From NCBI GenBank assembly GCA_003660555.1, contig QMUK01000032.1, positions 1-11,617 on the forward strand: 11,617 nt of DNA, read 5' to 3'. Origin of the DNA: Thermococci archaeon (lineage in GTDB: Archaea > Hadarchaeota > B88-G9). The position numbers and the translations under genes are program-made. Of the stretch, positions 2,593 through 11,617 are shown piece by piece (within the stretch, counting starts at the first letter, position 1; the number at the start of each line of letters is the position of its first letter). Below the pieces are notes generated by a model. It ran no database searches. It had not been told where the DNA came from and worked only from the letters and a program-made list of their open reading frames with translations.

Positions 2593-2635
2593 CCTGGAAC
2601 CCAACTTGAACCCCAATTGAACCGAGGTGTCACCT

Positions 2636-4180
2636 ATGTGTAGACCTAACCTCGCAACTGTATTGATTTTCCTCCTCTTGCCCATGGTATCCATCTCTTC
2701 CGGATGTATCGAGGAAACTAAGGAGAAAGAAAGAACTGAAGTAGTAATTCTGGGCACCACGGACAAGATAGTTAGCTTGGATCCTGCTAAAGCCTATGAC
2801 TATCTCTCTGTCAACGTAATAAACAACGTCTTTGAGGGGCTCGTAGGATACGAAGTTGGTTCCTCTAATATCGTACCGCTTTTGGCAGAGAGTTGGGAAG
2901 TAAAGGACAACGGGATGACCTACTTATTCAAACTCAGAAAAGGGGTTAAATTCCACGATGGCTCTGAGTTCAATGCTGAAGTGATGGAAAAATCCATAAA
3001 AAGGGCTATGGAACTAAAAGGAGATCCATCTTTCCTCTTGGATGTAATAGACGAAGTAAAAGCCGTAGATGAATACACCTTGGAAATAAAGCTGAAGTAT
3101 CCATTTTCTCCATTCTTGTCCGTGTTAGCATTTTCCGTGGCTTCTGCAGTAAGTCCTTCATATGGAGAAGAATTCACAGACGAGGCAATAGGTACTGGGC
3201 CATATAAGTTGGAGAAGTGGACTAGAGACGTTGAGCTAGTACTGGTGAGAAACGAGGAATACTGGGGAGAAAAGGCTAGGACCAAGAGATTCGTCATAAG
3301 ATTCTATCAGGATTCCTCCCAGTTGAGACTTGCAATAGAGAGGGGAGAGATTGACATAGCTTACAGAGAGCTCAAACCCCTTGACATAATAGACCTAAAA
3401 GAAAAGAAAGGAGATCTAATCGTCTTGGAGGGAGATAGTCCGGTAATAAGGTACTTGGTTTTCAACGTTAAGAAGGAGCCATTTAATAATCTTTCAATAA
3501 GAAAGGCCATATCTCTGGCAATAAACAGGAAAGAAATAGCAGAGAAAATCTTCTTCGGGACTGTGAAACCACTATACAGCATGGTTCCAGAGGGGATGTG
3601 GAGTCATTCCGAAGTCTTTCCCGAGAGGGATTTGAAGAGGAGTTCCGAGATCCTCAGGAGTTTAGGATATTCCGAGGAGAAGCCCTTGGAAATAACCCTG
3701 TGGTACACACCAACTCACTATGGTCCAACTGAAGCTGACGTAGCTCAAATGATAAAACAGCAACTAGAGGAGACTGGATTGATTAAAGTAAATCTAGAGA
3801 GTGTTGAATGGGCTACTTACACGGACTACATGAGGAAAGGAACCATGGGATTCTTCCTCCTAGGTTGGTATCCTGATTACCTAGATCCAGACGATTACCT
3901 CTGGCCTTTCCTACAATCGGATGCTAGTCCAAGTCTAGGGTCGTTTTACTCCAACGAGAGAATGGACGAGTTGCTCCTAGAGGCTAGGAAGGCAGAGAGT
4001 AGAGAAGAGAGGGAAAAAATTTATAAGGAGGTCCAGGAGCTACTGGCACAGGAGGTCCCTTACATACCCCTCTGGCAAGGAAGACAGTACGTGGTACTTA
4101 GAAGAGGAGTCAGAGGGGTGGTATTGGAGCCGACTCAGATATTCAGGTACTACATAGTGGAAAAAGGGGCCGTAGGGTAG
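2636..4180 (+). CDS. ABC transporter substrate-binding protein, oligopeptide/dipeptide family 5 (lipoprotein)
   Basis: This is an extracytoplasmic solute-binding protein of the DppA/OppA family (SBP family 5). It would capture peptides, sugars or metal complexes for an ABC importer. The 514 residues include an N-terminal signal with a hydrophobic stretch (LATVLIFLLLPMVSI) and a lipobox-like SSGC with Cys24 as the likely lipid anchor. Family landmarks follow: SLDPAKAYDY near 48, VFEGLVGYE near 66, LAESWEVKDNG near 82, and YLFKLRKGVKFHDGSEFNAE near 94-113, the typical family signature. Later come GTGPYKLEKW and, near the end, a YIPLWQ motif. I chose ATG 2636 because the SD GAGGTG (2624-2629) lies 6 bases upstream; an in-frame GTG at 2627 would overlap that SD. 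No permease or ATPase genes are adjacent. The last 15 bases, including the stop, overlap tRNA-Pro. Confidence 0.9.
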   Translation: MCRPNLATVLIFLLLPMVSISSGCIEETKEKERTEVVILGTTDKIVSLDPAKAYDYLSVNVINNVFEGLVGYEVGSSNIVPLLAESWEVKDNGMTYLFKLRKGVKFHDGSEFNAEVMEKSIKRAMELKGDPSFLLDVIDEVKAVDEYTLEIKLKYPFSPFLSVLAFSVASAVSPSYGEEFTDEAIGTGPYKLEKWTRDVELVLVRNEEYWGEKARTKRFVIRFYQDSSQLRLAIERGEIDIAYRELKPLDIIDLKEKKGDLIVLEGDSPVIRYLVFNVKKEPFNNLSIRKAISLAINRKEIAEKIFFGTVKPLYSMVPEGMWSHSEVFPERDLKRSSEILRSLGYSEEKPLEITLWYTPTHYGPTEADVAQMIKQQLEETGLIKVNLESVEWATYTDYMRKGTMGFFLLGWYPDYLDPDDYLWPFLQSDASPSLGSFYSNERMDELLLEARKAESREEREKIYKEVQELLAQEVPYIPLWQGRQYVVLRRGVRGVVLEPTQIFRYYIVEKGAVG

Positions 4181-4240
4181 CCTGGTCTATCCTTCGGGCT
4201 TTGGGGGCCTGGGACCCCGGTTCGAATCCGGGCGGCCCCA
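4166..4240 (+). tRNA. tRNA-Pro (TGG), overlapping the end of the upstream protein gene
   Basis: The acceptor stem GGGGCCG (4166-4172) pairs with CGGCCCC (4233-4239); the discriminator is A 4240 and CCA is not encoded. The anticodon stem CGGGC (4195-4199) pairs with GCCTG (4207-4211), with anticodon TGG at 4202-4204. The T arm is CCCGG-TTCGAAT-CCGGG (4216-4232). The first 15 bases are also the last codons and TAG stop of the substrate-binding protein gene. No convincing TATA box is visible upstream, only a weak AT-rich spot near 4138-4145 inside the coding sequence. Confidence 0.94.
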
Positions 4241-4243
4241 CTA

Positions 4244-4320
4244 CCCGCCGTAGCTCAGTCTGGGAGAGCGGGGGACTGTAGATCCTCTGGTCGCCGGTTC
4301 AAATCCGGCCGGCGGGACCA
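4244..4320 (+). tRNA. tRNA-Tyr (GTA), CCA encoded
   Basis: It begins three bases after tRNA-Pro. The acceptor stem CCCGCCG (4244-4250) pairs with CGGCGGG (4310-4316); the first pair is C-G, the usual archaeal/eukaryotic tyrosine identity. Discriminator A 4317 and an encoded CCA (4318-4320) follow. The anticodon loop CTGTAGA gives GTA. The T arm is GCCGG-TTCAAAT-CCGGC (4293-4309). No intron is present. rpl18e starts 19 bases downstream, so the tRNA pair is probably on the ribosomal protein transcript. Confidence 0.96.
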
Positions 4321-4339
4321 CATTATTGGAGGAGCCCAA

Positions 4340-4723
4340 ATGCCTAGGAAGAAGAGAGGGAAGAGGAAGTGTCAGAGTACCAATCCCCAACTAATTAACT
4401 TAGTAAGGATGCTCAAGAAGAAATCGAGGGAAGAAGGAGTCAAAATATGGAGAGATTTGGCAGAGAGATTAAGCAAGCCTAGGAGATCTAGAATAGAAGT
4501 GAATCTGAGTAGGATAAACAGATACACTGAAGAGGGGGAAGTAGTAGTGGTGCCGGGAAAAGTCTTGGGTGCTGGAGACTTGGAGCATAGTGTAACAGTA
4601 GCGGCCTTCAAGTTCTCTAGGAATGCCAAGGAGAAAATAGAGAAATCTGGAGGTAGAGCCATTTCCATAGAGGAGCTAATGTTAGAGGTGCCAAGGGGAT
4701 CTGGAGTGAGGATAATGGGGTGA
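4340..4723 (+). CDS. rpl18e: Ribosomal protein L18e (eL18)
   Basis: A component of the large ribosomal subunit, found in archaea and eukaryotes but not bacteria. The 127 residues are close to the archaeal family length. The N-terminus is strongly basic (PRKKRGKRK), followed by [20 protein letters not shown] near residue 19 and the conserved blocks [10 protein letters not shown] near 53, [13 protein letters not shown] near 68, and [10 protein letters not shown] near 84. The end GSGVRIMG matches the family C-terminus. ATG 4340 has the SD GGAGGAG about 5-7 bases upstream (4328-4334). This is the first gene of the classic archaeal cluster rpl18e-rpl13-rps9-rpoN, which is directly downstream here. 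No separate promoter is visible between tRNA-Tyr and this gene. Confidence 0.96.
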
Positions 4724-4727
4724 TTCC

Positions 4728-5162
4728 TTGTTAGTCCTCGATGCAGAAGGTGCTATTTTGGGTAGACTAGCGAGCTACGTGGCTAAAAAGCTTTTGGAAG
4801 GAGAAGAAGTGAGGGTAGTAAACGCAGAGAGGGCAGTTGTAAGCGGTAAGAGAGAATGGGTAATAGAGAAATACCAATCCTTCCTAAACGTCAGAAACAG
4901 GGCTAATCCCAGAAAAGGACCATTTCACGTAAAGAGGCCTGATCTCTTCGTAAAGAAAGTGATAAGAGGCATGCTTCCAAAAAAGAAGAAGAGAGGGAGA
5001 GACGCACTGAAGAGATTAAGGGTTTACTTGGGAGTGCCAGAGGAATTCAAAGGAAAGGCTGAGAAACTTGAATTGTTCAGTTCTTCGAAGATAACCAGAA
5101 CGGATTTAATCACTGTAGGCGAAATATGCCACTTCTTGGGTTGGAAGGGGGAATCTAGTTGA
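4728..5162 (+). CDS. rpl13: Ribosomal protein L13 (uL13)
   Basis: A large-subunit protein that binds 23S rRNA early in assembly. The 144-residue archaeal form begins [20 protein letters not shown], the standard N-terminus with the GRLAS motif, continues with [12 protein letters not shown] near residue 32, and has the block [20 protein letters not shown] near 65, followed by the [20 protein letters not shown] region near 86-104. The TTG start at 4728 is chosen because the protein then begins at the usual family position and the SD GGGGTG (4717-4722) lies just upstream, overlapping the rpl18e stop. The gap to rpl18e is 4 bases and the end overlaps rps9 by 4 bases. Confidence 0.96.
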
Positions 5163-5793: not shown

Positions 5794-5823
5794 CTATCCT
5801 TCTCTCGTGTTTTCCATTTACTC
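5794..5823 (+). terminator. Pyrimidine-rich stretch after rpoN, possible terminator
   Basis: Directly after the rpoN stop comes a T/C-rich stretch containing CTTCTCTC and a TTTT run. Archaeal intrinsic terminators are T-rich runs, so this may end the ribosomal protein transcript. No hairpin is evident and the T run is short, so this is weak. Confidence 0.2.
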
Positions 5824-5904
5824 AGATGGATCGACGATCCAGATGTGTTCGATAAACTGGTTGAGGCTGCGAAGAAATATCACGAGAAGAAGACTGTCGC
5901 CTAA
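5794..5904 (+). pseudogene. Orphan reading-frame tail behind rpoN, no start codon
   Basis: Thirty-six sense codons end at a TAA (5902-5904). From 5824 onward the frame reads like a genuine protein C-terminus: charged and helical, with WIDDPDVFDKLVEAAKKYHE followed by KKTVA. There is no ATG/GTG/TTG with a ribosome site ahead of it; the first in-frame GTG is at 5845. The frame happens to be the same as rpoN after its TGA. I do not recognise the family. It looks like the tail of a gene whose 5' part is lost, marking the left edge of the degraded region, but readthrough from rpoN or chance coding-like sequence cannot be excluded. Confidence 0.35.
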
Positions 5905-5978
5905 AAGCATGAAAGAGTCATCAACTTCGTGGACAAATTCCTTACTTGATAATCTGCTCCTCAAATTAGGTGCAATTG

Positions 5979-6492
5979 TCAGTTGTTTCTCTGAATCAAT
6001 AGTCTGTTTCTCGCAAGCGTTCTTGTCAACTTTTGATTGCTCATACGAGTTCATGACGTGTTTTGGCACCTGTGCACACCATTTTGCCCGTGCAGAATAT
6101 AATAAAGGACACCTTAGGTCTCTCCATTTGGTAAGTCAGAGCGGGAAATTGATCAGATTCATAAATCGACTTCGGTAAGACCTCGAAAGAACCCTCCAAA
6201 TTTACGTCACTTCCTAAATCAACTGAAGCGACAATATTAACAACCCTTATAGGGGACTTTGCCCTCTTGTCGCATGAGCGTTTGCCAACAAATTGATAGC
6301 CTTGTCTAAGGCAACCGTTGCCTCAGCCTCAGACCTAGCTCCTGAACAGATCATCTTCCCCAACCTAAAGATTAAAACAGCAACCTTGGACGTTCAAGCC
6401 TCAAAACAACCCAGGAAAACCAGCAGAGGAAAAACTGACTTCATCCAATCTAGAGGCAGCTTTTTTAATATCGACACCTGACTCTAATTCCC
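5979..6492 (-). pseudogene. tbp: TATA-binding protein pseudogene, N-terminally truncated and frameshifted
   Basis: Read on the - strand across frames, this is an archaeal TBP. The first repeat begins at SGVDIKKAASRLDEVSFSS and AGFPGL, then continues in another frame with KVAVLIFRLGKMICSGARSE, AEATVALDKAINLL. The second repeat has IRVVNIVASVDLGSDVNLEG, ALTYQMERPKVSFIIF and TGKMVCTGAK. These are the diagnostic VNIVAS, GKM(V/I)C and (S/T)GA(K/R) blocks of both saddle repeats. Lesions I can place: one-base losses near 6407, 6387, in the C run 6252-6255 and in the A run 6031-6034, plus a TGA at 6041-6043. The end of the protein is near the stop at 5979. The first ~15-20 residues of repeat 1 are missing because the gene is joined to a uracil-DNA glycosylase fragment. 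The family is clear; function as written is not possible. Confidence 0.85.
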
Positions 6493-6737
6493 AAAGCCTG
6501 TAGTGCAACTTTGCCCAAAGCCACTATCAGTTTATGCTGGACAGCTTCAAGCTGAACTTGTAAAAATTCCTTACAGGCTCCTATCTCTTTTCTATTTGGC
6601 ATTCTGTTCTTCGGCGTCGGGTATCTTACTGCTTCCGTAAGATAGACTTCTGCCCTTGAAAGGTCTGCCAAAGCCAGCAACCTATCCAAAAATTTTCCAA
6701 CTCTTCTGACAAACAGTCTTCCGAGCTCGTTCTCCAT
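6486..6737 (-). pseudogene. Family 4 uracil-DNA glycosylase fragment, cut at both ends
   Basis: On the - strand the frame reads NELGRLFVRRVGKFLDRLLA, then LADLSRAEVYLTEAVRYPTP KNR, then EIGACKEFLQ and KLIVALGKVALQAL. This is the middle of a family 4 (thermophilic, Fe-S) uracil-DNA glycosylase; the usual pattern is GRPFVGRAGKLLDxLL, LSREEVYITNVVKCRPPxNR and a LG-x-VAL block. The N-terminal Cys pair and the GEAPG catalytic motif are missing, as is the C-terminal His motif. FVGR has become FVRR, and the KC(R)PP cysteine is replaced by Tyr. The frame then runs directly into TBP sequence and hits a stop at 6465. With both active-site motifs absent it cannot be an active glycosylase. Confidence 0.8.
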
Positions 6738-6739
6738 TT

Positions 6740-7012
6740 TTTCCAGATTTGTCGTTCTCATAAATTTCTTTCCTGAAGCTTACTGGAACAGCTTTCAACT
6801 CTCCATAAACTTCTCTGTAAGCTTCAAGAACTCCGTTGGCGAAAGAAGTAAAATCGATGACATGAGAATATTCAACAGTTTCATCCAAGGTTCTCACCCT
6901 TAAGGTTAATTAATGATCTCTTGTCATTCCAGCTTAGTTTAAATGAAATCCTTCTAGGTTTTGCCTTAATGTACCTAGATATAAGCTCGCTAACTATTTC
7001 TTTACTTTTCAT
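6740..7012 (-). pseudogene. Unidentified small gene, apparently split by one frameshift
   Basis: A - strand frame starts at ATG 7012 (MKSKEIVSELISRYIKAKPR) and stops at 6881 after 43 residues. Just before that stop the adjacent frame takes over with good protein character: LDETVEYSHVIDFTSFANGV, then LEAYREVYGELKAVPVSF. A single one-base change near 6885-6895 would join them into a ~90-residue protein that ends where the glycosylase fragment begins. I do not recognise the family. The lack of a clear ribosome site ahead of 7012 and the position among broken genes suggest decay, but the 43-residue frame could also be a short gene in its own right. Confidence 0.35.
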
Positions 7013-7076
7013 GAATTGATTTTTGAAAAATGTAGGAGAATGTTACTGATGGATGTTTATTCCGTTATTTCAATTT

Positions 7077-7602
7077 TTATCCCGAGCCTAGTGGCTGAAA
7101 AAGAGCGCGTGATCGGGTCATCCTTAGAGTCTTGAAGGAATACAAAAGAATATCTAAGCGTTGATTATAGCCTCCTAAATGGGATGTGACTAGGAAGGTG
7201 GCTGTTAGGCTTTTATTATGCTTTAGTCTAATCCCCTTCTTGACTGAGAGAGGCTTGATAGTATTTAGAAGTAGCTTCTTAATCCTTTCAGCCCATTGCT
7301 TGTATCTGTCGACACTCAGGATGATTCTCTTGTATGGTTCGTCTCTCAGTTCCAGACCAAACAGCCCTTTTTCGTTACATACCAAAACTCCTTTCCTCTA
7401 GGCGTATAGTAGGTACCAGCTTTCATTACTCCTGGCAAATAAGTTCTAGGAGCCCTTATTTCTCTCCAGCTTGTCTCAGGGGCTTCAGTCCTTACTTCTA
7501 CTATATGCTCTAAGGAAATCTCAAAATCACGCTTAATAACCAAAACTTTTCCAGATCGCTTAAGTTTATTCTCAACTTCCCGTCACAAATGTTTAGTTTC
7601 AT
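7077..7602 (-). pseudogene. Archaeal PH-like domain protein, frameshifted twice
   Basis: On the - strand the gene begins at ATG 7602 (MKLNICDGKLRINLSDLEKF W). It shifts frame to KRDFEISLEHIVEVRTEAPE, then RAPRTYLPGVMKAGTYYTPR and GKEFWYVTKKG, and shifts again to LFGLELRDEPYKRIILSVD, then QWAERIKKLL. The order of a short leading strand, the LPGVxKAGTYY loop, EFWYV, and ELRDxPYKRIxLxV followed by a closing W-containing helix fits a known group of small archaeal PH-like proteins of unknown role. Both shifts look like the loss of one A: near 7533 and in the A run at 7368-7372. The recognisable protein ends near 7290; the frame continues to the stop at 7077 without family-like sequence. A TATA box at 7622-7631 is correctly placed. 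Confidence 0.72.
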
Positions 7603-7621
7603 CTAGATTTTCACGAATCAA

Positions 7622-7631
7622 ATATTTTAAA
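7622..7631 (-). promoter_or_regulatory. TATA box of the PH-like gene
   Basis: On the - strand TTTAAAATAT lies about 25 bases before ATG 7602, so a transcript would be nearly leaderless. The rest of 7603-7744 is AT-rich intergenic sequence in which I see nothing else. Confidence 0.4.
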
Positions 7632-7744
7632 CTTCATTAACAAATATAACATCAGGAGCCTATCGATTCTTGTGCTTTAAGTTTCTATTTATAAGCCCCT
7701 ATAAAATTACCAGCTCTTATTAGCTCCGTAAATAGTGAATTGCA

Positions 7745-8203
7745 TCATTCGGTTAGTTCAATTATTTCTTCGCAGTATTCCGTGTAGGGGCGGATTTTAT
7801 TGTAGTTTCTGGTGAAGCGTAGCTTTGGGTTGATTTTCTCAATTAGTAATTGGACGGATTTCTCCCATCCTTTTTTGCAAACCTTTCTTGTATCGAATCC
7901 GGCTCTTTTGCAGGCTTCTAGAACTGGACACCAGTTGTATGAGTGCCAAACAATTTTTCTCTCATCTTCATACACTATGGGAGCTTCTTCTGGCTTTAGT
8001 TTCATGAATTCGCGTATAAGCAAAGTGTAGGCCTTCCGAACATCTGAACCCTCAAGTTTAAGCTTATCCTTATTTTTCTCATACCAGCCAAGCCTATTCT
8101 CAATAGACTTCCGATTAATCTCGGAATAGTCATTGCTCTCTTCAGCGGCTCTGATCTCCTCAATAAACTGCCGAATTACCCTTTCTCTCTCATCCTCCTT
8201 CAT
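7745..8203 (-). CDS. Conserved hypothetical cysteine-containing protein
   Basis: An intact 152-residue frame among broken ones. The N-terminal half is highly charged and helical (KEDERERVIRQFIEEIRAAE). The second half carries what look like conserved motifs: WHSYNWCPVLEACKRAGFDT near residues 93-112, VCKKGW near 115, and LRFTRNYNKIRPYTEYCEE near 128-146. Four cysteines (in WCP, EAC, VCK and YCE) with Trp, Tyr and Arg nearby could form a metal or active site. It faintly recalls the L-2-amino-thiazoline-4-carboxylic acid hydrolase family, but I would not assign it. I chose ATG 8203 over the longer start at 8230 because GGGAG (8208-8212) is a good ribosome site. It is divergent from the acetyltransferase at 8284 and shares its TATA region. 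Confidence 0.65.
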   Translation of the reverse strand: MKEDERERVIRQFIEEIRAAEESNDYSEINRKSIENRLGWYEKNKDKLKLEGSDVRKAYTLLIREFMKLKPEEAPIVYEDERKIVWHSYNWCPVLEACKRAGFDTRKVCKKGWEKSVQLLIEKINPKLRFTRNYNKIRPYTEYCEEIIELTE

Positions 8204-8235
8204 GGCACTCCCTCTTTGTAAAATATGCACTAAAC

Positions 8236-8244
8236 TTTATATTT
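8236..8244. promoter_or_regulatory. Shared TATA box between divergent genes
   Basis: TTTATATTT on the + strand reads AAATATAAA on the - strand. It lies about 37 bases before ATG 8203 (-) and about 44 before ATG 8284 (+), leaving short leaders of roughly 10-18 bases in each direction. Position and composition only. Confidence 0.45.
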
Positions 8245-8283
8245 TGTCCTTCACTCTTCCTTGTAATGAAATGGAATATGTGA

Positions 8284-8751
8284 ATGGAAATGATTGAGAG
8301 GGCTTCTGAAGAACATGCCAAGAAAATCTTGTATGTCATTAACGAGAGTAACCGGAAAGCATACAAGGATATAATTCCAGAAAAGCATTTCAGGGAGCCC
8401 GTTCTATCAATCGAAGAGCTTCTGCAGGATTTTAGTAGAATGAGTTTCTATGTTTACAGGCATGAGGGTGAAATTGTTGGAGTTGCGGCTCTTCATGTTT
8501 TGGATAAAGATACGGGAAGGATACGATGGGTCTATGTCCTGCCAGAGTTTCAGAGGAAGGGCATAGGAACGGCACTCGTCACTTATGTTGAGCATGAGGC
8601 TGAGAGATTCGGGTTAAAGAAGCTATGGCTTATTACTGCAGAAAAAGCATATTGGGCCATAAATTTCTATAGAAAACTCGGGTACAGGCAAACGGGAAGA
8701 ATAGAGAGACCATGGGGTAACGATTTGATCATGGAAAAGGAAATCCATTAA
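8284..8751 (+). CDS. GNAT-family N-acetyltransferase
   Basis: An intact 155-residue acetyl-CoA-dependent acetyltransferase of the GNAT fold. The acetyl-CoA binding motif A is clear: WVYVLPEFQRKGIGTALVTY near residues 84-103, containing the Q/R-x-x-G-x-G/A loop (QRKGIG). Motif B appears as AINFYRKLGYRQTG near 124-137, the usual C-terminal signature. The N-terminal region holds a long helix (ASEEHAKKILYVINESN) and a strand ending in VGVAAL near 63-68. The substrate cannot be told; small molecules, protein N-termini or antibiotics are all possible in this family. ATG 8284 directly follows an in-frame TGA; ATG 8290 is an equally possible start, and no strong SD is visible. It is one of only two intact genes in the degraded region. 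Confidence 0.85.
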   Translation: MEMIERASEEHAKKILYVINESNRKAYKDIIPEKHFREPVLSIEELLQDFSRMSFYVYRHEGEIVGVAALHVLDKDTGRIRWVYVLPEFQRKGIGTALVTYVEHEAERFGLKKLWLITAEKAYWAINFYRKLGYRQTGRIERPWGNDLIMEKEIH

Positions 8752-8792
8752 CGTTCTCACTAGAAACCAAAAGCTGTATTTTCCGGATATGG

Positions 8793-8802
8793 ATATATTT
8801 AA
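8793..8802 (+). promoter_or_regulatory. TATA box ahead of the DUF72 pseudogene
   Basis: ATATATTTAA lies about 35 bases before the TTG at 8832 that begins the DUF72 sequence, leaving a leader of roughly 9 bases. Its survival suggests the gene was once expressed. Confidence 0.4.
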
Positions 8803-8831
8803 ATGAGAATTTGCCGATTGCCAAAAAATAT

Positions 8832-9752
8832 TTGATTGGAACGGGCGGCTGGGCTTATTTTCGCGTTCCCGGCATGCATCCATTGGTACTTACTCAAGAA
8901 TATATGATTTTGTTAAGGTGAACTCGACTTTTTACGTACTTCCTTCTTTGAGTAGGGCAGAGCATTGGAGAAAAAATTGTTCCAGAGGATTTTTGAATTT
9001 ACGGTCAGATGCAATCGGGTAGTTTCCCATAAATTCAAATTCACACCAACTAATAATGCGCTGACAGGACAGTTTTTGAGGAAAACGTAAGGGTCTGTAC
9101 AAAACTTAGAGCCGAGTTTCTCCATGTTCAGATTCCAATCACTAAAGCCTGATTACAGTCTAGCTGGATTGATTAGAGAATTCCTTTCGTCAACCAGAAC
9201 AAATGGGGTGGGATTAGCTATTGAAACAAGAGGCATGCAACCCGATGAGAGGTTTCTGAAACTTATGCAAGATCTCAACATAATCCATTGCGTGGATCTA
9301 TCTAAGGGGCGAAAAACAGCGGTAGAGTCTGATGTCCTTTATTCAAGGCTATTTGGTAAAGGTGTGCATAATATTTATCAGCCCACAGATGAGAGCTGAA
9401 AATGATTGATGAAATGGTCTCTGAAGGAGATCATGAAAAAGCCCTTCTGTGTTTCCACTTCGTTAAAATGTATAAGGATGCAGCTAGGCTTAAAGTTTAC
9501 AAGCAGACCGGGGAGTTTCCAATGGTTACTCGATCAACCGGTTTAAGCCCACTCGCAGAAGTCTTAAGCGAAGACGCAAAATTTCCAACTACCAAGCAAA
9601 AGTTGATTTCTGAGCAAGGATGGAAGCTGATAGATTTAACTAGAGACAAGAAGGTCAGAGCTTCAGTCTTGCTTAAGAAGCTTTCAGATGGAACTTTTAG
9701 AAGTTTGGATGATGTAATTGCTGAGCTCTCAGGAAAATTTAAAGGAAGCTGA
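8832..9752 (+). pseudogene. DUF72 family protein pseudogene, near full length, multiple frameshifts
   Basis: From a TTG at 8832 the + strand reads IGTGGWAYFRVPGMHPL, then in shifted frames YSRIYDFVKVNSTFYVLPSL, SRAEHWRK, VVSHKFKFTPTNNAL, FEENVRVCTKLRAEFLHVQI, SLAGLIREFLSSTRTNGVGL AIETRG, and finally MIDEMVSEGDHEKALLCFHF with a ~75-residue tail ending at 9752. This is the DUF72 (YecE-like) TIM-barrel family of unknown function, with the opening G-T-G-G-W, the VNSTFY block and the AIETRG/HCVDLS region. I place lesions near 8886, in A run 8971-8976 (one extra), in T run 8990-8994 (one extra), at a 5-base tandem duplication GACAG GACAG (9063-9072), near 9149, and near 9393 (one G lost). The last ~115 residues are still an open frame from 9402. 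Confidence 0.82.
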
Positions 9753-9782
9753 ACGATGTAATTTACTGGGGCAGCCCGCGAA

Positions 9783-10221
9783 GGTTCGAAATTGCTTGAA
9801 AAGTACAATGTTGCATACACGATTATCGACGAATCTCTTTTGCCGCCAGAGATTAAAGTAACTGCGAAGATAGCCTTATTTTAGATAGCATAGAAAGGGG
9901 ACAAGGCCTTGGTACAATTATAGATGCAGAAAAGAGGAGCTTGAGCCATGGGTACCTAAAATAAGGGAAGTTGCGGAAAAGATTGCTGTGGTTTACGAAC
10001 ATTTCAATAATCATTTTCATGGTTATGTTGTGGAAAACTGCCTTCAGGTTCTCGAAATTATTAGCGAGCTTACACCTGAGCAAATAGAGGACAAGAGAAA
10101 AATCCAAGTCTATTTCAAGACTGCTAAAAGTTCTACCAAAGTTGAGAAACCATTTCTTGAAATGTTTGTTGAACCCACCGAGCTCAGCTTTGATTCCCTT
10201 ATTCGAAGGTTTATTGATTAA
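9783..10221 (+). pseudogene. C-terminal half of a second DUF72 protein, broken
   Basis: Starting near 9783 the frame reads GSKLLEKYNVAYTIIDESLL PPEI, then after a shift RKGTRPWYNYRC, EELEPWVPKIREVAEKIAVV and YEHFNNHFHGYVVENCLQVL, ending at a stop at 10219-10221. The WYNY, FNNHxHGYxVEN order is the standard end of DUF72 proteins and is different in sequence from the preceding DUF72 pseudogene, so this is a second family member, not a repeat of the first. Its N-terminal half is missing. An extra T at 9876-9877 shifts the frame, and a TAG at 9886-9888 stands where the family normally has Trp (RWH). From 9988 to the stop the frame is open. It follows the first DUF72 gene by only ~30 bases. Confidence 0.75.
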
Positions 10222-10275
10222 CAAAGGCTCAAGGGGCAAGAAGGATCGAGGACTAGGAAATGAGCATCCGAAATC

Positions 10276-10280
10276 AGGAG
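10276..10280 (+). promoter_or_regulatory. Ribosome binding site of the SWIM pseudogene
   Basis: AGGAG lies 5 bases before ATG 10286. It supports 10286 as the original start, rather than the longer open frame that overlaps the DUF72 end. Confidence 0.4.
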
Positions 10281-10285
10281 AGAAC

Positions 10286-10567
10286 ATGATCGAGGCAATC
10301 ATCGGGGATTACCATGTTGTAATCGATCTTAAAAATTGCATCATACTCCATGATTGTGCTGACTGGAGCAGATGCATCCTCAAAAAAGGTTCTGCAAGCA
10401 CTCGGCAAGTTATTCTTGACTCTTCCAGATTGAAAGATCTGCTCTCTCTTTCATCGAGGTTGGTCAACGAGTTCGTTATCATTCACTCGAGAATTATCTT
10501 AAAACAGAGAAAAGGGAAGAAATTAGTAGGTTCACATCGTGAAATTGCGTCTCAGTGTGCTTACTAA
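10286..10567 (+). pseudogene. SWIM zinc-finger protein pseudogene
   Basis: The frame from ATG 10286 reads MIEAIIGDYHVVIDLKNCII, then LHDCADWSRCILKK. In a shifted frame the next bases give RFCKH, and in a third LGKLFLTLP, before the original frame resumes with LKDLLSL and RLVNEFVI. The order V-x-I-D, C-x-D-W, then F-C-K-H-L-G-K is the SWIM zinc-finger pattern (C-x-C-x(n)-C-x-H), seen in small archaeal proteins of unknown role and in SWI2/SNF2 and MuDR-type proteins. Losing one A from the run at 10382-10387 and one C near 10400 explains the break; a further shift lies near 10430. The C-x-H ligands are therefore not in frame and the finger cannot form. Sequence after about 10500 shows no family resemblance. 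Confidence 0.7.
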
Positions 10568-10599
10568 ATACCTAAAGCCAGTAAGAAGCAGTTAGGCGC

Positions 10600-11300
10600 T
10601 CAGTGTATGTGCTTCAGTAGTGCGACGTATGTATTGGCTAAAGTACAGCGGTTCTCGTCCATCTTAACTTCTACTTTGATTCTCACTCTTCCTTGGCAAT
10701 GGTAACAGTATCCATGATCTCTAACTAATATCGAATATTCAGTCCAGTGCGAGTGTTTAGTTGCGAATAATCCCCATAGTTTAGTGTAATCTGTCTTCCA
10801 CTTGATTCCCTTTGTGTATAGGTCAGAGTCGTCTATTGTCTCTAGCATGGGCATTGTAATCCCAGAGCTGTAGCCAACGCCTACACTTCCACTGAGCCCA
10901 CTACTAGAAACTCCCAAATCGAATCCCAGATTGAATCCGTGGGTCACACTTCCGGAAGAGGTAGTGGGGCTGTACCTCAACACATAGAAATAGAGTGACT
11001 TTCCCTCTGGTTCCGCACTAACAGATACATAGCGAACGGAAAAGTCATCTTCAGGATTGACTTGTATCCAAATAAATGTTCACCAGGAAGTAATTATAGA
11101 TTGGGTCACTGTCTTCTGGAGCCCTACTCACTCTCTTTTATTTGTACTATGGCGTCCCCGCACCGGGAAGTCAATCGATGTACTTTATAGTCGACTGTCT
11201 CCCATCCTCCACCATTACTCATTGCTCCAGGAATCATTGAAAGTGTTACTAAGGAGGGAAGAAGAAGTAAGACCAGTTTTCGTCTTACATCAGCACTCAT
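10600..11300 (-). pseudogene. Exported protein with signal peptide, frameshifted twice
   Basis: ATG 11300 is preceded by a strong SD (AGGAGGGG at 11306-11313) and begins MSADVRRKLVLLLLPSLVTL, a typical signal peptide of basic start and hydrophobic core. The frame ends early at a TAG after IVQIKESE. Removing one copy of a 4-base tandem duplication (11126-11133, ACTCACTC on +) continues it as RAPEDSDPIYNYFLVNIYLD. A second one-base shift near 11064 leads to NPEDDFSVRYVSVSAEPEGK and the long end, with a glycine/serine-rich segment (NLGFDLGVSSSGLSGSVGVG) and a W/Y/C-containing tail to the stop at 10600. The rebuilt protein is about 225 residues and extracellular; I recognise no family. The start overlaps the upstream gene by 11 bases. 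Confidence 0.6.
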
Positions 11301-11617
11301 CTATACCCCTCCTTCCTAGAGCGTAAACGGTAATCCTCTTCCATAGGTCTTCTATCAGGTCTGGGCCATACACGTAATCCGGAGGAGATGGCTTCTCGGG
11401 CTCAATTAGATACCTAGTGTCCCACATGTAGAGGTTTATCTCGAATCCCTCCAAGTTCTCTGTTCTCACGTCGCAGGGATCCGGGTAGTTGTAGTAGGAG
11501 TAGCCCCTCTCCGGATAATAGGAGGAGGGTTCGAAGTATATGCTCACGAAGTAGTAAACCTCTTCCGGGAAGTGTTGCTCATCTATTCCCCTGGCTTTCC
11601 TTAGCAGGACCTCACTT
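11290..11617 (-). CDS. 3' end of an unidentified protein, upstream partner of the exported gene
   Basis: The frame is open from the right window edge to a TGA at 11290-11292 (about 108 codons seen). The sequence is rich in Tyr, Pro, Glu and Asp, for example IYFEPSSYYPERGYSYYNYP and YLIEPEKPSPPDYVYGPDLI, and ends in LWKRITVYALGRRGIDEC. Such a Tyr/Pro-rich composition suits a surface-exposed or extracellular protein, but no signal is visible since the N-terminus is outside the window. I do not recognise the family. Its last codons hold the SD and ATG of the next gene, so the two are probably translated together and may act together. Confidence 0.6.
   Translation of the reverse strand, partial: SEVLLRKARGIDEQHFPEEVYYFVSIYFEPSSYYPERGYSYYNYPDPCDVRTENLEGFEINLYMWDTRYLIEPEKPSPPDYVYGPDLIEDLWKRITVYALGRRGIDEC

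Follow-up and report, generated by a model that had tools for sequence, protein, structure and literature searches.

How does a protein gene end when its stop codon is part of a tRNA, and does this arrangement serve a purpose? The question is raised by contig QMUK01000032.1 (contig C32, 11,617 nt; this whole stretch is called the window here) of an archaeal genome in draft form (1.30 Mb in 150 contigs, 91% complete), which is the sole representative of its family among 28 available genomes of its phylum. The gene of an SBP_bac_5 solute-binding lipoprotein of the peptide/nickel ABC type (SBP) is located at 2636–4180 on the + strand, and tRNA-Pro(UGG) is located at 4166–4241 on the same strand. 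The 15 shared nucleotides (4166–4180) are read as the codons GGG GCC GTA GGG (GAVG) and TAG in the protein gene, and as positions 1–15 of tRNA-Pro, comprising 7 acceptor bases, U8 and A9, and G10–G15. The stop codon TAG (4178–4180) corresponds to U13-A14-G15 of the tRNA. The sequence-only reading had placed the end of SBP 15 nt inside tRNA-Pro, and this is exact, with the open reading frame, Pfam, the homologues, ARAGORN and Rfam (4166–4240/41) all in agreement.

The reading frame of SBP extends from 2627 to 4180 with no earlier in-frame stop, and its product matches PF00496 (SBP_bac_5) at 1.1e-99. The GTG codon at 2627 is probably not the start; ATG at 2636 is favoured because GAGGTG (2624–2629) resembles a Shine-Dalgarno sequence for it. 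Homologues from three archaea of other phyla (46–50% identity) can be aligned from residue 6–11 to residue 512–513 of 517, which argues that the frame is coding right up to the tRNA. These homologues end in ...FRYSTLYKE*, ...FRYSTLYKEG* and ...LTYSTIYKS*, and the window protein ends in ...FRYYIVEK followed by the tRNA-encoded GAVG. By this alignment, the conserved protein stops at the start of the tRNA, and the overlap contributes four extra, unconserved residues. Reading of TAG as a sense codon was considered and rejected, as 19 of 49 long frames in the loci of this genome finish with TAG, which therefore seems to be an ordinary stop. Only two cloverleaves are apparent from folding of the region 4130–4345 (z = 0.29). 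SBP has no adjacent permease genes; the two closest homologous loci have an apparent permease gene directly 3′ of the SBP gene, and eight permease-domain matches are found elsewhere in the window genome.

SBP is part of an array of genes on the + strand. It is preceded by tRNA-Asn(GUU) (2517–2592), located 43 nt 5′ of the SBP start codon. The BRE/TATA-like promoter of this tRNA, AAACCCTTTTATata (2480–2491, 12.0 bits), scores higher than any other + strand promoter candidate in the window and is likely the upstream start of the array. On the other side, tRNA-Tyr(GUA) (4244–4320) begins 2 nt 3′ of tRNA-Pro, and the gene for ribosomal protein L18e (rpl18e, 4340–4723) follows after 19 nt, which leaves no space for a promoter of its own. 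The + strand frames downstream of L18e begin at 4728, 5159 and 5584; the first two are presumably L13 and S9, names given from their sequence and position, and the third is RNA polymerase subunit N. For both tRNA-Pro(UGG) and tRNA-Tyr, a single copy was found in the assembly. The bodies of tRNA-Pro(UGG) and of tRNA-Pro(CGG) on contig C115 are nearly identical; the two genes differ in the anticodon base and the encoded CCA end. The right part of the window (5800–11617) has few convincing genes and resembles decayed or unfamiliar sequence. It contains a UDG fragment (6465–6761) with a possible frameshifted continuation (6682–6897), a short, weak DUF72-like frame (9124–9399), and one intact GNAT gene (8284–8751).

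The position of the stop codon reflects the makeup of tRNAs themselves, in which U8 and A14 are nearly universal. T8 and A14 yield a TAG at tRNA positions 8–10 or 13–15, each in roughly one of two archaeal tRNAs surveyed. Of 200 tRNAs, 113 close one frame with a stop whose last base is nt 10, and 97 close a second frame with a stop whose last base is nt 15. Therefore, once a gene near a tRNA has lost its own stop, its frame will often be closed within 10–15 nt, at the cost of 3–4 extra residues.

The same arrangement is found at other places in the genome. All 42 tRNA genes found in it were screened for same-strand frames entering them, and three further genes, each confirmed by Pfam, end 10 nt inside a tRNA with the stop T8-A9-G10. 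These are pgk (phosphoglycerate kinase, contig C5) in tRNA-Thr(UGU), rpiA (ribose-5-phosphate isomerase, contig C7) in an intron-containing tRNA, and a GNAT acetyltransferase gene (contig C115) in tRNA-Pro(CGG). The overlap is thus not confined to transporters. Overlaps of this kind affect 4 of 42 tRNAs in the window genome and no more than 3 of the 303 surveyed in 21 other archaeal genomes, of which ten belong to the same phylum. The enrichment has a Fisher p value of 0.005, which is only approximate because coverage of the other genomes is partial, uneven and biased toward high-scoring tRNAs. In the first of the survey cases, a PfkB kinase ends 10 nt inside tRNA-Ile (genome G003). In the second, a metallo-β-lactamase-fold protein ends 11 nt inside tRNA-Thr (G029), where the predicted tRNA start probably differs by one base. 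In the third, a 250-aa frame reaches 56 nt into tRNA-Asp (G005); it has no Pfam match and, judged by eye, looks like a homing endonuclease of the LAGLIDADG type. Every overlap with a Pfam-confirmed gene thus ends at nt 10 or nt 15 (11 nt in G029). Further frames entering tRNAs in the survey were dropped, as they appear to be antisense or chance frames.

The direction of change can be read from rpiA alone. The same intron-containing tRNA lies 3′ of rpiA in 15 of 17 relatives, but there rpiA has its own stop and is separated from the tRNA by a gap of 25–240 nt (median 27), with no overlap. The window genome alone, against these 17 relatives, has the overlap. Because the relatives keep a separate stop and a gap, the overlap at rpiA is, by this comparison, a derived, lineage-specific state. 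This pairing of rpiA and tRNA is unusually stable across the phylum, and ARAGORN types the tRNA as Met or Ser, varying by genome. For SBP the polarity is taken from rpiA by analogy, and the overlap would then be derived as well. No close counterpart of SBP was found within the phylum, a scan of the genome contigs for SBP relatives gave only distant SBPs, and none of 29 other SBP-family loci has a tRNA directly 3′ of the SBP gene. No tRNA was found 3′ of pgk or of the GNAT gene in relatives, and the tRNA found 5′ of rpl18e in relatives, in the g13 genomes, is tRNA-Leu and not Pro or Tyr.

Whether RNase P can act on the SBP mRNA depends on how the array is transcribed. A promoter motif, AAAG.TTTATAT, was learned from the upstream regions of the window genome's own tRNAs; it starts mostly at −39 to −33 of the tRNA genes, with a peak at −36. 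With an archaeal TATA-to-start distance of about 26–27 nt (e.g. PMC3491384), the motif puts the transcription start at about the first base of the tRNA, and most tRNAs here should therefore have hardly any leader. The motif is located about 5 nt further upstream of the tRNAs in the Thermococcus-like genomes G032 and G054, whereas TATA boxes are similarly close to the tRNA genes in relatives within the phylum. Such short leaders prompted the idea that RNase P had been lost, a state known from Nanoarchaeum. This was rejected, as the window genome retains a gene for RNase P RNA (211.8 bits).

The BRE/TATA box that most tRNA genes of this genome carry at −36 is absent from tRNA-Pro, where the score is −0.5 bits, a value that 37% of coding windows reach. 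An internal promoter near 4138–4145, suggested earlier as a feature to look for, is not borne out (−0.5 bits, p = 0.96 against synonymous recodings), and transcription of SBP and tRNA-Pro as one RNA becomes more likely. There is no promoter-like match in the region 4040–4340 (best 3.4 bits) or between tRNA-Asn and the SBP start, and no T-rich terminator in the form of a run of at least four T in 3948–4755. Scans for sigma-70 promoters and intrinsic terminators are uninformative for an archaeon. As promoter and terminator motifs are missing, we infer a common transcript for tRNA-Pro, tRNA-Tyr and the L18e operon that includes at least the 3′ part of SBP and probably all of it.

These observations can be explained by compaction, a reading that we consider probable. 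Loss of intergenic sequence would have removed the original stop codon, and the bases of the tRNA would provide a new one, the overlap being a by-product with no dedicated regulatory role. SBP, tRNA-Pro, tRNA-Tyr and the L18e operon would be transcribed together, either from the tRNA-Asn promoter at 2480 or from an internal one near 4015. RNase P would then release tRNA-Pro at 4166, presumably with high efficiency since the only copies found of tRNA-Pro(UGG) and tRNA-Tyr lie here. The cleaved mRNA would end in frame after the AAA codon that precedes the tRNA, and it would encode all of SBP except GAVG, as the homologues end at the start of the tRNA. Ribosomes that arrive at the TAG while the tRNA is still unfolded and uncut would terminate normally, and those on the cleaved mRNA would need nonstop rescue, for which Pelota (aPelota) and an NFACT/Rqc2-type gene are encoded in the genome. 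The cost of the overlap to SBP is probably small and tolerated.

The sequence-only reading had gone further on this point. Its proposal that a cut by RNase P at 4166 removes the SBP stop from a shared transcript agrees with the geometry and with the presence of RNase P RNA. Its claim that tRNA maturation and full-length translation exclude each other on every molecule goes too far, since a ribosome may get to the stop before folding and cleavage of the tRNA.

Among the other explanations, separate transcription is the one that survives best, and it is compatible with compaction. Here tRNA-Pro, tRNA-Tyr and L18e would start inside the SBP gene, from a candidate internal promoter, AAAAATTTATAA (4015–4026, + strand, 9.5 bits, predicted start at about 4051), and RNase P would act mostly on RNAs without a complete SBP frame. 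The score of this box is within the range of real tRNA promoters. Moreover, a similar box (9.8 bits) lies 44 nt 5′ of the tRNA that rpiA overlaps, and at the GNAT gene a box of 4.7 bits, a score reached by 4% of coding windows, occupies the usual place. Haloferax has 1153 internal starts and a tRNA whose leader is 300 nt long (PMC4983044). However, the box at 4015 is unexceptional for the encoded peptide, no better than random synonymous coding (p = 0.21), and it would require a 115-nt leader, whereas the other tRNAs here have almost none. In addition, an SBP mRNA containing its stop would still extend into the tRNA. We regard separate transcription as unlikely.

A regulatory role for the overlap is possible on the geometry, but in our judgement improbable. 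Maturation of tRNA-Pro would make a nonstop SBP mRNA and thereby cap the level of the transporter, perhaps coupled to the demand for the tRNA. The geometry is right, a shared transcript is likely, and RNase P, Pelota and NFACT are all encoded; the same has been suggested for selB and tRNA-Sec (Mukai 2021, PMC8124441). The excess of overlaps over the relatives could also mean a selected function. On the other hand, cleavage would remove merely four unconserved residues, and pgk, rpiA and the GNAT gene, which are overlapped alike, have no common function calling for such control. The overlap is conserved in none of the relatives compared, and processing of the only copies found of tRNA-Pro(UGG) and tRNA-Tyr is not freely reducible. 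The earlier suggestion that the overlap limits transporter levels is thus unsupported; an overlap unique to this sequence had been named as evidence against it, and none is present in the SBP relatives.

It is more doubtful still, to the point of being very unlikely, that this lineage uses the 5′ ends of tRNAs systematically as stops and mRNA ends, with rescue by Pelota and NFACT as part of normal expression. If this were true, RNase P would make several housekeeping and transporter mRNAs nonstop, and completion of translation would compete with tRNA maturation. An assembly artefact, in which the nearly identical tRNA-Pro(UGG) and tRNA-Pro(CGG) acted as a repeat in a draft of 150 contigs and SBP was joined to the wrong tRNA, is extremely unlikely, as both tRNA-Pro copies are overlapped by their upstream genes and exchanging these genes still gives an overlap, pgk and rpiA run into other tRNAs, and unrelated genomes have similar junctions.

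Ordinary tRNA genes can close the frame of a preceding gene through their invariant bases, and this has recurred within one archaeal genome. The four gene pairs offer naturally occurring material for studying how archaeal cells resolve a clash between RNase P and the ribosome on one RNA. They are also a warning for annotation, since rules barring overlap between coding sequences and tRNAs would shorten or drop such genes.

Transcripts shared by tRNAs and protein genes are known in archaea. tRNA-Lys of Thermococcus kodakarensis lies within the 5′-UTR of TK0306 (PMC4247193), and Haloferax volcanii has tRNAs without a proximal start (PMC4983044); the available text of both papers describes no overlap with a coding sequence, which is the difference from SBP. 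As described there, these tRNAs resemble tRNA-Pro in being located on the transcript of a protein gene and in needing both 5′ and 3′ processing.

Mitochondria often restore a cut stop codon through polyadenylation. In comparison, the entire TAG is inside the tRNA here, and a repair of this kind is not known. The likeness is to animal mitochondria with tRNA punctuation and overlap of genes and tRNAs, such as those of Armadillidium vulgare (cited in PMC8124441), where tRNAs between protein genes are excised and thereby set the ends of the mRNAs.

For overlap between a coding sequence and a tRNA in prokaryotes, our literature search found one direct precedent, selB and tRNA-Sec (Mukai 2021, PMC8124441). 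The selB frames enter or traverse tRNA-Sec (selC) in Alphaproteobacteria, Gammaproteobacteria and Nitrospirae, and in some Gammaproteobacteria the selB stop is inside tRNA-Sec, at nt 46–48 in Dyella/Luteibacter. It was proposed in that study that tRNA processing creates a nonstop mRNA, with tRNA and protein as alternatives, and the either-tRNA-or-protein mechanism of the sequence-only reading is therefore not new. SBP shares with selB a coding frame that enters a functional tRNA on the same strand and stops inside it. The selB overlap has been conserved in many species and extends over half of the tRNA or its full length, and the protein works with that tRNA. In contrast, no conservation was found for SBP, rpiA, pgk or GNAT among relatives, all from outside the family, and neither the ABC-transporter SBP nor the other three proteins have a functional link to their tRNAs. 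The overlap of SBP and tRNA-Pro is thus a lineage-specific, archaeal one of 15 nt at the 5′ end of a functionally unrelated tRNA, and it is one of four such gene pairs in the same genome.
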